A model generated the notes under the pieces. It ran no database searches. It was not told the origin of the DNA and worked only from the letters and a program-made list of their open reading frames with translations. A program made the translations under genes and the position numbers. Source: Sulfoacidibacillus thermotolerans (GTDB lineage Bacteria > Bacillota > Bacilli > Alicyclobacillales > SLC66). Taken from it: a DNA stretch of 64,000 bases. Below are positions 31,584-43,679 of this stretch, piece by piece. Within the stretch, counting starts at the first letter, position 1. Each line of letters begins with the position of its first letter. The stretch lies in contig NZ_MPDK01000012.1 of the NCBI RefSeq assembly GCF_003144315.1, positions 1-64,000 of the forward strand, given 5' to 3'.

Positions 31584-32249
31584 TTAAGAAACTATTGTAG
31601 TTTCTGGTAGAGTAGTCCCGCTGTTTTCAAGCGTAATCATTTCTCGCGTATAATGAATGGCTGATTGCTGCAAGCGTAAAATGTCATTTTGTAGACCACC
31701 ATAACCTGAATCATAGGGATGCGTAACCCAATATTGAACCCCATGATCTTTCTTCGGTGCGGCAATCTGTCGATCAATGCGTTCAAGTTGCCCCGAAAGT
31801 CGTGCGTGATCCTCAAGCGCTGTGTGCAATAAACCTTTTCTATGAGGATGATGGTCATAAGAAATGACCAGTTTCCATACAGCATTTAGCTTTTGTAAAA
31901 TCTCTATGCGCTCAGACGTTAATTGTTTCATTTGCAAACTGGCTTCACTAGAAGTCTCTGGTGCGTGTGGGATCGATGAAATCCCGCTTTGTAAGGCTTG
32001 CCAAGAAGCATAAAGAGCAGTCACCTGTGTATTAATGAGAGTAACCGTCGAAAATAATGCTTCAATTGTTGCATTTGTCACCGAGGAAGCCTGCGCTTTT
32101 TGCAACAAAGACTGCTCCATAGTTGCTTTTTCTTGGTACTGACTAACAAATGAATTTGTTGCAGCAAAAGCTGGCACTCCGCCTGCCAATGGAATGGCTA
32201 AGATTGCGACTGTCACTGTACTTGTCTTAAAGAATGAAATTCTGTTCAA
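31584..32249 (-). CDS. Secreted helical protein, unrecognised
   Basis: 221 residues starting at TTG 32249 behind AAGGGGG. Signal peptide MNRISFFKTSTVTVAILAIP ending at AFA-A. The mature part is almost entirely helical and Gln/Leu/Ser-rich (EKATMEQSLLQKAQASSVTN; HALEDHARLSGQLERIDRQI), suggesting coiled-coil or helical-bundle packing. No cysteines, no catalytic motif, no anchor. Likely exported and possibly cell-wall or matrix associated; function unknown. Confidence 0.7.
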   Translation of the reverse strand: MNRISFFKTSTVTVAILAIPLAGGVPAFAATNSFVSQYQEKATMEQSLLQKAQASSVTNATIEALFSTVTLINTQVTALYASWQALQSGISSIPHAPETSSEASLQMKQLTSERIEILQKLNAVWKLVISYDHHPHRKGLLHTALEDHARLSGQLERIDRQIAAPKKDHGVQYWVTHPYDSGYGGLQNDILRLQQSAIHYTREMITLENSGTTLPETTIVS

Positions 32250-32346: not shown

Positions 32347-35286
32347 TCATTCGGCAAAAGAGCCTTCTACTTGAAATTGTGACATCAGTTCGTTCAAGTG
32401 GAGTGCCTGCTGACTTGATTGCTGTGTATTAGAAGAGATGATTTCCATCGCGGCATTCATTTCAGTCGTCAACGCAGCCACACTTTGCGCGCTATTCGCT
32501 GTCTTCTCAACCATTTCAGCAACGGTCGCCATCAAGTTTACAATGTCATTTGAGTTTTTCACTTCTTCCTGTGTGATTTGATCCATCCCTTCGACTTCTT
32601 CGTTTGTCTGTTCTACAGCAGACAAAATATTTTCAAGTGCTTGTCCAGATTGAACGGCCATATCGACTCCCATTGTGACAGCCGTTTGACTCTCTTTAGT
32701 CGCAATGACACTGGCATTTGAAATCGTAAGAATGTGCGAAAGAATATTCCCTACACGTGCCGATTCAACACGCGTCTGCTCTGCCAATTTTCTCACTTCA
32801 GCAGCAACAACTGCAAAACCCTTCCCTTGCTCACCTGCTCGCGCAGCTTCAATCGATGCATTTAACGCCAGTAAATTGGTTTGCTCCGCGATATCACTAA
32901 TCGTGCTAGCAATTTGGTCAATTTGTTTTGAGTACTCTTGTAATTCCATCATGCTTTTTTCCGTTTGCGTCGTTTTCTGTTGAATCTCTCGTATATTCGC
33001 AATGGTTTGATCGACCTTATCTTTTCCTAAAAGCGCAACGTCACGAGTGCGATTAGAAATGGATCTTGCAGAGTCTGCTTTTTCTTGCGCCTTTTCAATC
33101 AGAGCAGATAATTGCAAAAGCGCTTGTGAAATCTGGTGCACGGTTTGAATACCCTGTGCAGAGATGTTTGTAAGCCCATGCGTTTGCTGTGCAATATCCG
33201 CAATTGACGCTGCTGTCTCTTCCGTAGATGCAGCTGTCTCCTGTGATGCAGCTGTTAACTGATGCGAACTTTTATGAAGTCCAAGCAACAACAATCGTAG
33301 ATTCTCAACCATCAAATTGGTTGAGGTCATGAGCAGCCCGATCTCATCACCTGTTTTAGAGGGGAGAGCGTTTATGCGTAGATCTCCCTGTGCAATTTGC
33401 GTCAAATGGTTGGCAATCAGGCGAATGGGCCGTAAAACACGCCGCAAATAGTAAATTAACCCTATACTAAATAGAATAATACTCGAATAAGTAACAACAC
33501 TAACAGTTCTTAGTTGGAGAATAAGTCCCAACGCATTTTGCCTCGAAAAATGAGAGTTTGTTGCAAGGTAGTGCATCAAGGAACTCGTTTGCATGAAAAC
33601 AATCGCAGCCAGCAGAATAACAATTGCGATGAGTACAACAAATACACTTGTCAGCTTAGAGGATAACGTATTGTCCAATTGTCTAGATTCATGTTCATAG
33701 GCACTTTGCTCAAGCGCCGTAATTGCTTCCCCCACCTCGTGTGTACGATACCCACTCGCTACACCCCAATAGTAAAAACCGAGTGAGACTACCGTCACTA
33801 CCACGAGATCCCAAGGATAGGGAATATAATTTTTAAATTCCCCCAATTTTGTCGACCCAACATACGTGAGGAGAAGCATAGTAAATAGATACATAATGAG
33901 CCAAACACCGCTTTTAAACGCTTGACGATCTGGACGTTTTATCTGTTGTGGAAGGACAACTGAAAAGAGCAAATACAACATCACACCGACAAGAATAGAG
34001 ACCATAAGTTTCCAATCTGTATTCCAACCAGTCCAATAAATAATCATCGAACCAATGACAAATGCAATAGGTGCAATGACCGAATACCCCTTTAAAGAAA
34101 AAGGTCGTTTCGCTTCTGATGCTGTTCTCCTTAAGACCGCCAACGAAACCGGTCCGATGATATAGGTAAAGACAGTAGCCGAAGAAACCAAGCCAACTAA
34201 ATTCTGCCAAGAAGGAAAAGGCAACAGAAAAATAAGTCCTAGGAGAAAGGCCACAAAAAGCGAAAAATTAGGTATTCCAGTTTTGGGGCTCACTCTTGCT
34301 AACACCGGAGGAAAATACCCATTTTTAGTAAGCGCATACAGAACGCGAGAGGTCGATGCAATATATACATTTCCAGTTCCTGCAGGAGATAGTACCGCGT
34401 CAGCATATAAAAGCATAGACAGCCACCCGAGATTTAGACTCGCCGCTAGTTCAGCAAAAGGCGCATTATAAGATACGTTTGCCCAACCGTGCGAGAGCGA
34501 AGAAGGCTCAATTCCTGCAACAAATACGACTTCTAAGAGTACGTAGAGAAAAATCCCAACGAGAATCGATAAGAACAAGGCAATGGGGATATCTCGCTGT
34601 GGATTACGGGCTTCTCCCGAAAAATCAACAGCCTGACGAAATCCTAAATACGCAAAAATGACACCAGAAGTTGCGACAGCTACCAAGATACCAGAAGATC
34701 CATTGGGAGCAAATCCCCCTGCTTGCGTCATATTGCTCCAATGCAAACCAGAGAATACAAATGCAAGAATCGTTATCACTGGCATAACGAGTTTAATGAT
34801 TGTGACCATTGTGTTTACTCGCGCAAAATAACGAACACCAAAGTAATTAATTAAGAAAAAAATTAACATTAACCCCGCTGCAGCAAGGAGACCAAATCCT
34901 GTGAGTAAATTCGTCTTTGCATTCCAAAGACCGTGAATCCAGAAAGACGCATATTGCATAACCCCCTCAGCTTCAACTGCTGGGACCGCTGCATAAGCAA
35001 TCCACGCAGCCCACCCCATAATAAATCCAGTAATATGACCATGACTATAATGAGGATAGCGCGCGATGGACCCTGATTCAGGCAACATGCCTCCTAATTC
35101 AGCAAATACAAAGCCAATTAAGAGAACGGCAATTCCGCCTATAATCCAAGATATAATCGATGCCGGACCTGCATCCTGCGCTGCATATAAGGAACCAAAG
35201 AGCCAACCTGATCCGATTATGCCTCCCACAGAAGCCATCGTAAGGTCTAATAAAGATAAATCTTTTTTAAAACTCGATTGCTTCAT
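32347..35286 (-). CDS. Amino acid permease fused to a methyl-accepting chemotaxis receptor
   Basis: 979 residues in one open frame. Residues 1-500 are a complete APC-superfamily transporter with about 12 spans ([55 protein letters not shown]). By eye this is very like Bacillus YveA, an aspartate-proton symporter, through its last helix ([11 protein letters not shown]). A linker leads to two more spans (about 545-563, 594-613) with only about 30 residues between them, then HAMP (613-669) and a full chemoreceptor signalling domain. That domain includes methylation-type [13 protein letters not shown] and the CheA/CheW tip [20 protein letters not shown] at about 798-817. No separate ligand-binding domain is present, so the transporter itself is presumably the sensor. 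ATG 35286 follows GGAGG. Confidence 0.93.
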
Positions 35287-35600
35287 AGAAATTCCTCCAA
35301 CTTATCTAAAAATATGGAACGCATTTATGAATGCCATTAAGTATTACGAGGAGTTTATGTACATAGACAACGTTCCTATTTCCACCCCCATCTATATGTA
35401 AAAGAAAAGTCACCTACCTTTCAATAATAAACTAAGCAATTTCTGAATATTGATAATTAGATTACATTATATCATAAGTTTAACTTTTATAACATCAGGA
35501 ATACTTTTAAAACAACTGTAAATCAGAATCTCGCAGCAAGTGTAGCTAGCTATCATCCGCAAAATAAAAATCGAGAAAAGGATGAGACCCTTCGTTCCCT

Positions 35601-42057: not shown

Positions 42058-42438
42058 TCACCTCCAGTAGCGCATAATACTTTTAATTTCTTGACATAGT
42101 TCATAAGCTTGAAAAGGCTTAGTCACAAAACCTGCAGCTCCAGCTTGAATGGCCTCCATCACCAAATCCTTTTGTCCAATTGCTGAAATCATGACCACAA
42201 GTGCCTCTTGATGCTGAGTTTTTAACTCTTTTAGCGCTGAAACTCCGTCCTGCTTAGGCATTGTAATATCCATTGTTACTAGATCCGGACCACAAGTTTC
42301 ATACAGTTGAAGCACTTGTGTCCCATCTGATGCCTCTCCTACCACTTCCCAACCACAAGAAGTTACGACCTGCCGTATGACACCTCGCATAAAAAGGGAA
42401 TCGTCGACAATCATGATCCGCAAGGGCCATCCCCCCAT
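42058..42438 (-). CDS. CheY-like single-domain response regulator
   Basis: 126 residues, a receiver domain with no output. Acidic pair in IMIVDDSLFMR, phospho-acceptor Asp in VTMDITMPKQDG, Thr/Ser in VVMISAIGQ, and Lys in FVTKPFQ. The DITMPxxDGV and KPF features are those of CheY/Spo0F-type proteins. It would be phosphorylated by CheA and interact with the flagellar switch or a partner. ATG 42438 is 8 bases after AGGGGAG. It lies 18 bases after the EAL gene, thus in an operon under the c-di-GMP riboswitch. Confidence 0.9.
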   Translation of the reverse strand: MGGWPLRIMIVDDSLFMRGVIRQVVTSCGWEVVGEASDGTQVLQLYETCGPDLVTMDITMPKQDGVSALKELKTQHQEALVVMISAIGQKDLVMEAIQAGAAGFVTKPFQAYELCQEIKSIMRYWR

Positions 42439-42456: not shown

Positions 42457-43420
42457 TTAAAGATCACCTTTAAATACATGGTATGAAAGTAAAAGGAGAT
42501 CAAGCGACTTCCCCATCGCAACGACCTGTGCATCAGAAAACGGTCTGTCCCTATGCATAACCATGCTGTGCAACCCCTCTTTTTGCAATTCAATTTGAGC
42601 TAATAACCATGGCGTTTCAGACATTTTCAAAGGTTTACTCCAATAAAATCCCTGACTTAAATGCACTCCAAGCTCGCGAAGAAGATGTAAGTCTTCCCAT
42701 TCTTCAACTCCTTCGGCGACAATTTTCGTTGATTCTGGGATGACTTTAAGTAACCTCTCTACTTGTTTCTGTTGTTGAATCGAACGTGCAAGTCCCTGTA
42801 TCATCGATTTATCGATCTTCACATACTCTGGATGTATCCTGCCCACTTTATCGAGCAGATCTGGTAAATCAGCATCTTCCTGAAGATCGTCGAGAGCAAA
42901 ATACACACCTTGTGACCGCAGCCTGTCGATGGCAGATACTATTTCTTTTGTACAATAAGGAATATACTCAACGAGCTCAATGACAAGTTCCATAGATAGC
43001 TGACGAAAGCGCCCAGCAATCCGTTCTAAAAAGTGGACAAAGCGCGCATCCAATAAATTAGTTGGGATGACATTAATAAATAACGTTTTACAAGACAAAG
43101 AATCATATTGAAAATGGGCAATTGCTTGTTCAAATGCCAAACGATCCGCTGCAGCTTGCTGATTGCAACGAGCTGCACTTTTAAAAAAAATATCAGGGGG
43201 GAAAAACCGCTGATTGAGATAGGGTCGACTTAAGGCTTCATGTGCAATCACTTGCCCGCGGCGATGATCGACAATCGGTTGGTATAATGTATAGAGGGAC
43301 TTCTTTTTTAATACTTCTGAAACCCACCGCTTTTGCAATATTACATTATTTGGTTTTATAGGGTGATTATACCCCCCCCCCCCCCGAGTTGGGATAATTT
43401 AACATATAATGCGTCTGCAT
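42457..43420 (-). CDS. EAL c-di-GMP phosphodiesterase with poly-G tract in the coding region (out of frame as sequenced)
   Basis: Paralogue of the EAL gene at 24296-25257, with intact catalytic motifs: HEALSRP, LFINVIP, VIELVEY, ALDDLQED, YVKIDKS, AEGVE, SQGFYWS. The plain open frame begins at TTG 43338. The better start is ATG 43420, 7 bases after AGAGGG, encoding MQTHYMLNYPNS and then Gly codons of a G14 tract (43372-43385). With 14 G the frame ends at GTA-TAA just after the tract; with 13 (or 16) G it reads YNHPIKPNNVILQKRWVSEV into the EAL domain. The translated flanks on both sides of the tract align with those of the first EAL gene. A c-di-GMP riboswitch precedes it. Confidence 0.85.
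43372..43385 (-). repeat. Homopolymeric G14 tract inside the second EAL gene
   Basis: Fourteen consecutive C on the plus strand. The tract follows an Asn-Ser pair, as the other tract follows Asn-Gln, and the downstream PIKP aligns with PITP. Frame is restored with 3k+1 G residues (13 or 16). Confidence 0.9.
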
Positions 43421-43490: not shown

Positions 43491-43572
43491 AAGCGGCAAC
43501 CCGGCTGTCATAGGCTTCGCTGCCCTTAGACCCGTGGCTTTGCGCCCTAACGTTTCCGTTAGTTTGCCTTGA
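43491..43572 (-). ncRNA. Cyclic-di-GMP-I (GEMM) riboswitch aptamer
   Basis: Minus strand begins AAGGCAAAC, then CTAACG-GAAA-CGTTAG (stem capped by a GNRA tetraloop), GGGCGCAAAGCC (the conserved GCAAAGCC core), GGGTCTAAGG with later CCTATGAC (tetraloop receptor, CUAAG/UAUG) and closes with GCCGGGTTGCCG. Every conserved block of the GEMM-I consensus is present in order. It controls the EAL gene and the downstream cheY-like and yvyF-like genes. Confidence 0.94.
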
Positions 43573-43679
43573 AACACTCGATATATGTCGCTGCTTAAGA
43601 AGAATACTTTTATTTTCCGTCAATCTTCGACATTTTTCAAGTTATTTTTTGCTTTATTCATGTAAAATCAAGCTAAGTG

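Follow-up and report, generated by a model that had tools for sequence, protein, structure and literature searches.

Can a complete amino acid transporter take the place of the sensor in a chemotaxis receptor? The question is raised by one gene in the window, by which we mean the whole 64,000-nucleotide stretch of Sulfoacidibacillus thermotolerans DNA analysed here. A single open reading frame of 979 codons, running on the minus strand from an ATG at 35286 to a stop codon at 32347, joins a permease to a methyl-accepting chemotaxis receptor (MCP). The same architecture is kept in two metagenome-assembled genomes (MAGs), G002 and G003. The elements of the locus, all on the minus strand, are as follows (window coordinates; residues of the fusion protein):

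32347..35286, minus: complete fusion gene (979 codons and a stop codon); kept in G002 (L038:2739-5660) and G003 (L039:990-3911)
33751..35286, minus: APC-superfamily amino acid permease, residues 1-512, 14 predicted spans (Pfam and hydropathy)
33649..33750, minus: cytoplasmic linker, residues 513-546 (hydropathy and alignment)
33592..33648, minus: receptor TM1, residues 547-565 (hydropathy; the only TM1 match is to the stand-alone MCP G003C43a)
33508..33591, minus: extracytoplasmic loop of 28 residues, at the position of the deleted periplasmic domain (hydropathy and MCP alignment)
33451..33507, minus: receptor TM2, residues 594-612 (hydropathy and MCP alignment)
33295..33447, minus: HAMP domain, residues 614-664 (Pfam)
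32350..33294, minus: MCP cytoplasmic signalling domain, residues 665-979 (Pfam)
33205..33255, minus: two methylation-type motifs, residues 678-694 (consensus search)
32773..32886, minus: conserved hairpin tip, residues 801-838 (sequence; invariant residues across the fusions)
35294..35298, minus: Shine-Dalgarno GGAGG, seven bases 5' of the ATG (sequence)
35422..35495, minus: upstream block with promoter-like TGATATAAT, conserved in G002

Three Pfam domains are found in the protein, all above their curated cut-offs: AA_permease_2 (residues 10-436, 4.7e-50), HAMP (614-664, 1.4e-9) and MCPsignal (746-923, 4.7e-34). These are the domains for which an earlier, sequence-only reading of the locus had proposed a joint search. 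The permease half scores 171 bits against PF13520 (cut-off 27) and covers profile positions 1-426 of 427, which places it in the APC superfamily. Hydropathy predicts 14 permease spans followed by two receptor spans; an extra, low-scoring segment at residues 253-271 of the window's protein is not seen in G003 and was left out of the count. The even number of permease spans makes the permease C-terminus, the linker and HAMP cytoplasmic, and the TM1-out/TM2-in course of the receptor fits this arrangement. AF2 modelling of the whole chain gave low confidence (mean pLDDT 59.5), and the model served solely to place helix boundaries.

The sequence-only reading had named a frameshift or assembly join at the fusion point as one observation that would undo it. 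Such an artefact is ruled out by the recurrence of the fusion, free of internal indels, in two separately assembled MAGs: G002 (WH4.bin32, JAKACV010000066), of the same genus, at 80% identity, and G003 (JA4.bin15, JAJZCW010000026), of another genus in the same family, at 60%. The fusion is thus known from three independently assembled genomes in two genera of Bacillota. The G003 copy has no ATG, GTG or TTG at the aligned start (L039:987-3911); translation would start either from an ATA preceded by a good Shine-Dalgarno sequence or from an ATG located nine codons further in.

Elsewhere the architecture is rare. It is absent from the congener G001, and no further fusion was found in about 800 other genomes sampled from the class and phylum. 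Among 84,980 species genomes scanned for the junction pattern, only the G002 and G003 MAGs matched; the short patterns used were drawn from this permease subfamily, so that fusions with other permeases could escape it. No plasmid record spans both halves. Long permease frames in G010, G018, G022 and G041 (765-898 codons) were considered as additional fusions and rejected, there being no MCP downstream; their surplus length is an upstream open frame in GC-rich DNA. In the open-access literature searched, a permease-MCP fusion is undescribed, and reports may exist beyond open access. This rare and patchy occurrence would suit a pseudogene in the making or an assembly chimera, a reading that we consider very improbable, since the frame is open, indel-free and constrained in all three genomes.

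The receptor half has the two spans, the HAMP domain and the MCPsignal domain with conserved tip that characterize MCPs. In known MCPs the hairpin tip is the contact for CheA and CheW, and it is intact here, in agreement with what had been read from the sequence of this module. The genome in which the window lies carries eight MCP-domain genes, the fusion included, together with genes for CheA, CheW, CheR and flagellins, so a chemotaxis output is available to it. A classical MCP would have a periplasmic ligand-binding domain between TM1 and TM2, and the 28 residues found in the fusion leave it with no such sensor, as the sequence-only reading had recognized.

The origin of this gap can be seen by comparison with G003C43a, a stand-alone MCP of 570 residues in G003 (L040:6870-8579), whose HAMP-signalling part is 65% identical to that of the window's protein. 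In the alignment the fusion joins the MCP near residue 5 of the latter, retains TM1 and picks up again shortly before TM2; about 127 residues of the G003C43a periplasmic domain are missing as a clean deletion. The TM1 match is specific: the fusion scores 96 against G003C43a, whereas no other MCP tested exceeds 45 and the top score among 2000 shuffles is 46. TM1, TM2, HAMP and the signalling domain are thus shared with G003C43a and related sister-genus MCPs, whereas the periplasmic residues are particular to the stand-alone receptor, which lacks a permease. The next gene downstream of G003C43a, in the same orientation, codes for an MFS-type transporter (L040:5337-8579 for the pair).

With the receptor's own sensor gone, the permease might serve only as a tether, bringing a transporter into chemoreceptor arrays or an MCP into the membrane, while the receptor half is constitutive or driven by its neighbours. 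The linker would allow this, since its core (residues 520-541) is the least conserved stretch of the fusion (32% and 9% identity), and the receptor half is diverging in G003, where its branch length is 1.12 (0.09 and 0.24 for the other two). Against pure tethering, the permease, transmembrane and HAMP parts are all conserved without indels and the linker is variable yet fixed in length; we hold this explanation to be improbable. Some of the same observations also count against the permease acting as a sensor: the variable linker lacks conserved residues as well as any STAC-like domain, and the fast-evolving G003 receptor half has no canonical methylation motif (strict consensus finds two motifs in the window's protein, one in G002 and none in G003).

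Several features argue against a vestigial permease. A set of 11 stand-alone permeases shares 278 invariant positions; no one of these is altered in every fusion, and only 26 differ in at least one of the three. The GSG motif of TM1 (G25-S26-G27) and Lys165 of TM5 are invariant in 13 relatives, and Lys165 aligns with Lys191 of GkApcT. The TM5 lysine has been tied to proton coupling in ApcT-type transporters, and the fusion permease contains both the unwound GxG motif of TM1 and the TM5 lysine of proton-coupled APC members. Between the window's protein and that of G002, non-synonymous change per site is 0.09 in the permease, 0.13 in the signalling part and 0.41 in the linker, with synonymous sites near saturation, which makes ratios rough. 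From these patterns we infer that the permease half may still bind or transport its substrate.

What that substrate might be is suggested by family relationships. The fusion permeases form their own clade within the AimA(YbeC)/YveA family, with distinctive TM6 residues R217 and D221. Its two closest relatives in a Bacillus-like genome, G208, are 43% and 41% identical to the fusion permease. The first lies beside glpQ/glpT-like genes, which is the ybeC (now aimA) position of the Bacillus subtilis map; the second, of 520 residues (L119), is presumed from its length and paralogy to be YveA. The fusion permease belongs to the clade of neither, and the earlier description of it as YveA-type is only partly right. 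The B. subtilis permeases resemble the fusion half in family and length and differ from it in standing alone. AimA, of which YveA is a paralogue, is a promiscuous importer that takes up glutamate, serine and asparagine (PMC10882977). This kinship makes small polar or acidic amino acids the candidate substrates; aspartate, which had been put forward as a stimulus, would be included in this class without being specifically supported. No riboswitch, T-box or conserved neighbour that would narrow the choice was found upstream of or around the fusion gene.

Close relatives of both halves also indicate how the fusion may have formed. Two stand-alone permeases in the window's genome (C48 and C49) are 75-76% identical to the permease half, and G003 and G015 each have one at 74%. 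In the permease tree the fusion halves adjoin the G003/G015 stand-alone protein (88/86). In the MCP tree the receptor halves of the three fusions group together (98/96), G003C43a being their sister, and an AU test rejects grouping G003C43a with two of the fusions to the exclusion of the third (p 0.017). Two independent fusions are therefore disfavoured by the MCP data; the permease tree is weak at this point (82/30). We favour a single fusion event accompanied by loss of the sensor domain as the most economical history. It probably took place in the lineage of genus g2, to which G003 belongs, because both parents occur there. The presence of the fusion in two species of genus g1 would then reflect either transfer or inheritance with loss.

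The genes flanking the fusion differ among the three genomes. The upstream neighbour in the window is divergent, so the fusion gene seems to form a separate unit, and no convincing match to a sigma-D-type promoter was found upstream of it. Directly downstream (31584-32249, minus strand) lies a gene for a secreted-looking protein of 221 residues with no Pfam match. A FetAB-like ABC gene pair adjoins the G003 fusion (L039:4054-5609), and a similar pair lies within a few genes of the stand-alone permease on C49 of the window's genome (L045:8946-10523); the two sites possibly share an ancestral neighbourhood. Elsewhere in the window, a c-di-GMP-I riboswitch (43492-43578, minus strand, 83 bits) precedes an EAL-type gene (42457-43338, assigned by eye), which is followed by a CheY-like receiver (42058-42438).

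We think it somewhat more probable than otherwise that the gene encodes a chemotaxis transceptor, in which a complete permease is fused to an MCP stripped of its periplasmic ligand-binding domain and provides the input. The fuller statement, to which we give an even chance, is that this is a chemoreceptor with a working secondary amino acid transporter as its only sensor, made by joining permease to MCP and discarding the MCP sensor, and that occupancy or turnover of the transporter directs swimming. We infer both the signalling and its coupling route as follows. The permease, of the amino acid:proton symporter type, would be the sensory input, and binding or transport of an amino acid would shift its LeuT-type core into another conformation. 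The movement could pass to HAMP through contact with receptor TM1 and TM2 and through the cytoplasmic linker, and HAMP would then bias CheA activity via the conserved tip. A linker that is variable and fixed in length makes an in-membrane contact or a helical spacer likelier than a dedicated linker domain. A permease of 14 spans per receptor is large for the usual array packing, and the fusion is therefore probably a minority member of mixed receptor arrays. The earlier proposal that transport or substrate binding is the likely input agrees with this reading.

A different input is also conceivable. Energy and pH taxis through the TM and HAMP regions of MCPs are established, and the permease might simply transport while the receptor senses the consequences (proton influx, proton-motive force, cytoplasmic pH or energy taxis) and not occupancy; the fusion would then serve to set the flux beside the HAMP/TM bundle. 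Retention of Lys165 is consistent with proton coupling. A bulk signal, however, would need no fused transporter, and Pfam finds no PAS or other cytoplasmic sensor module in the protein. We regard sensing of consequences as unlikely, though a shade less so than tethering.

The transceptor reading has precedents in other combinations of transporter and output. CbrA is composed of an SLC5/SSS transporter, STAC, PAS and histidine kinase domains, with a full LeuT-type transporter N-terminal to the output (PMC7918813), and so resembles the fusion in carrying a LeuT-type transporter and a signalling output in one chain. It differs in its transporter family, in having STAC and PAS domains and in a histidine-kinase output that serves gene regulation; Pfam finds neither SSS nor STAC in the fusion, which separates it from the SLC5/STAC transporter-kinases. 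In KsAmt5, an Amt-histidine kinase, the transporter domain is a built-in sensor, and binding rather than efficient transport signals (PMC8534201); the fold (Amt) and the kinase output are different from those of the fusion. A membrane-embedded, transporter-related fold acts as MCP input in the 5TMR-MCPs, which are S-component-like (PMC11109136); these have five spans and form a receptor family, in contrast to the complete transporter seen here. In LysP/CadC and DctA/DcuS the transporter informs the sensor (PMC6978683), with separate proteins and a gene-regulation output. The fusion is a member of both the APC permease superfamily and the MCP signalling family, and falls outside the periplasmic-sensor MCPs and the SLC5/STAC kinases.

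Judged by sequence comparison, a few related species of Bacillota thus have a chemotaxis receptor whose outside sensor has given way to a complete amino acid uptake protein, suggesting that swimming may be steered by what the cell's transporter binds. Transporter-fused signalling is already known for histidine kinases, where the sensor role of the transporter is disputed; publications on CbrA, the best-studied transporter-kinase fusion, differ over whether its transporter does the sensing (PMC8871633, PMC7918813), and this weighs against the transceptor reading. An MCP output would give this question a fast and quantitative read-out, as CheA activity or swimming. Both parents have close stand-alone relatives, namely a permease at about 74% identity and an MCP that retains its sensor domain, so comparison and chimeras can be used to study how a permease may have become a sensor.
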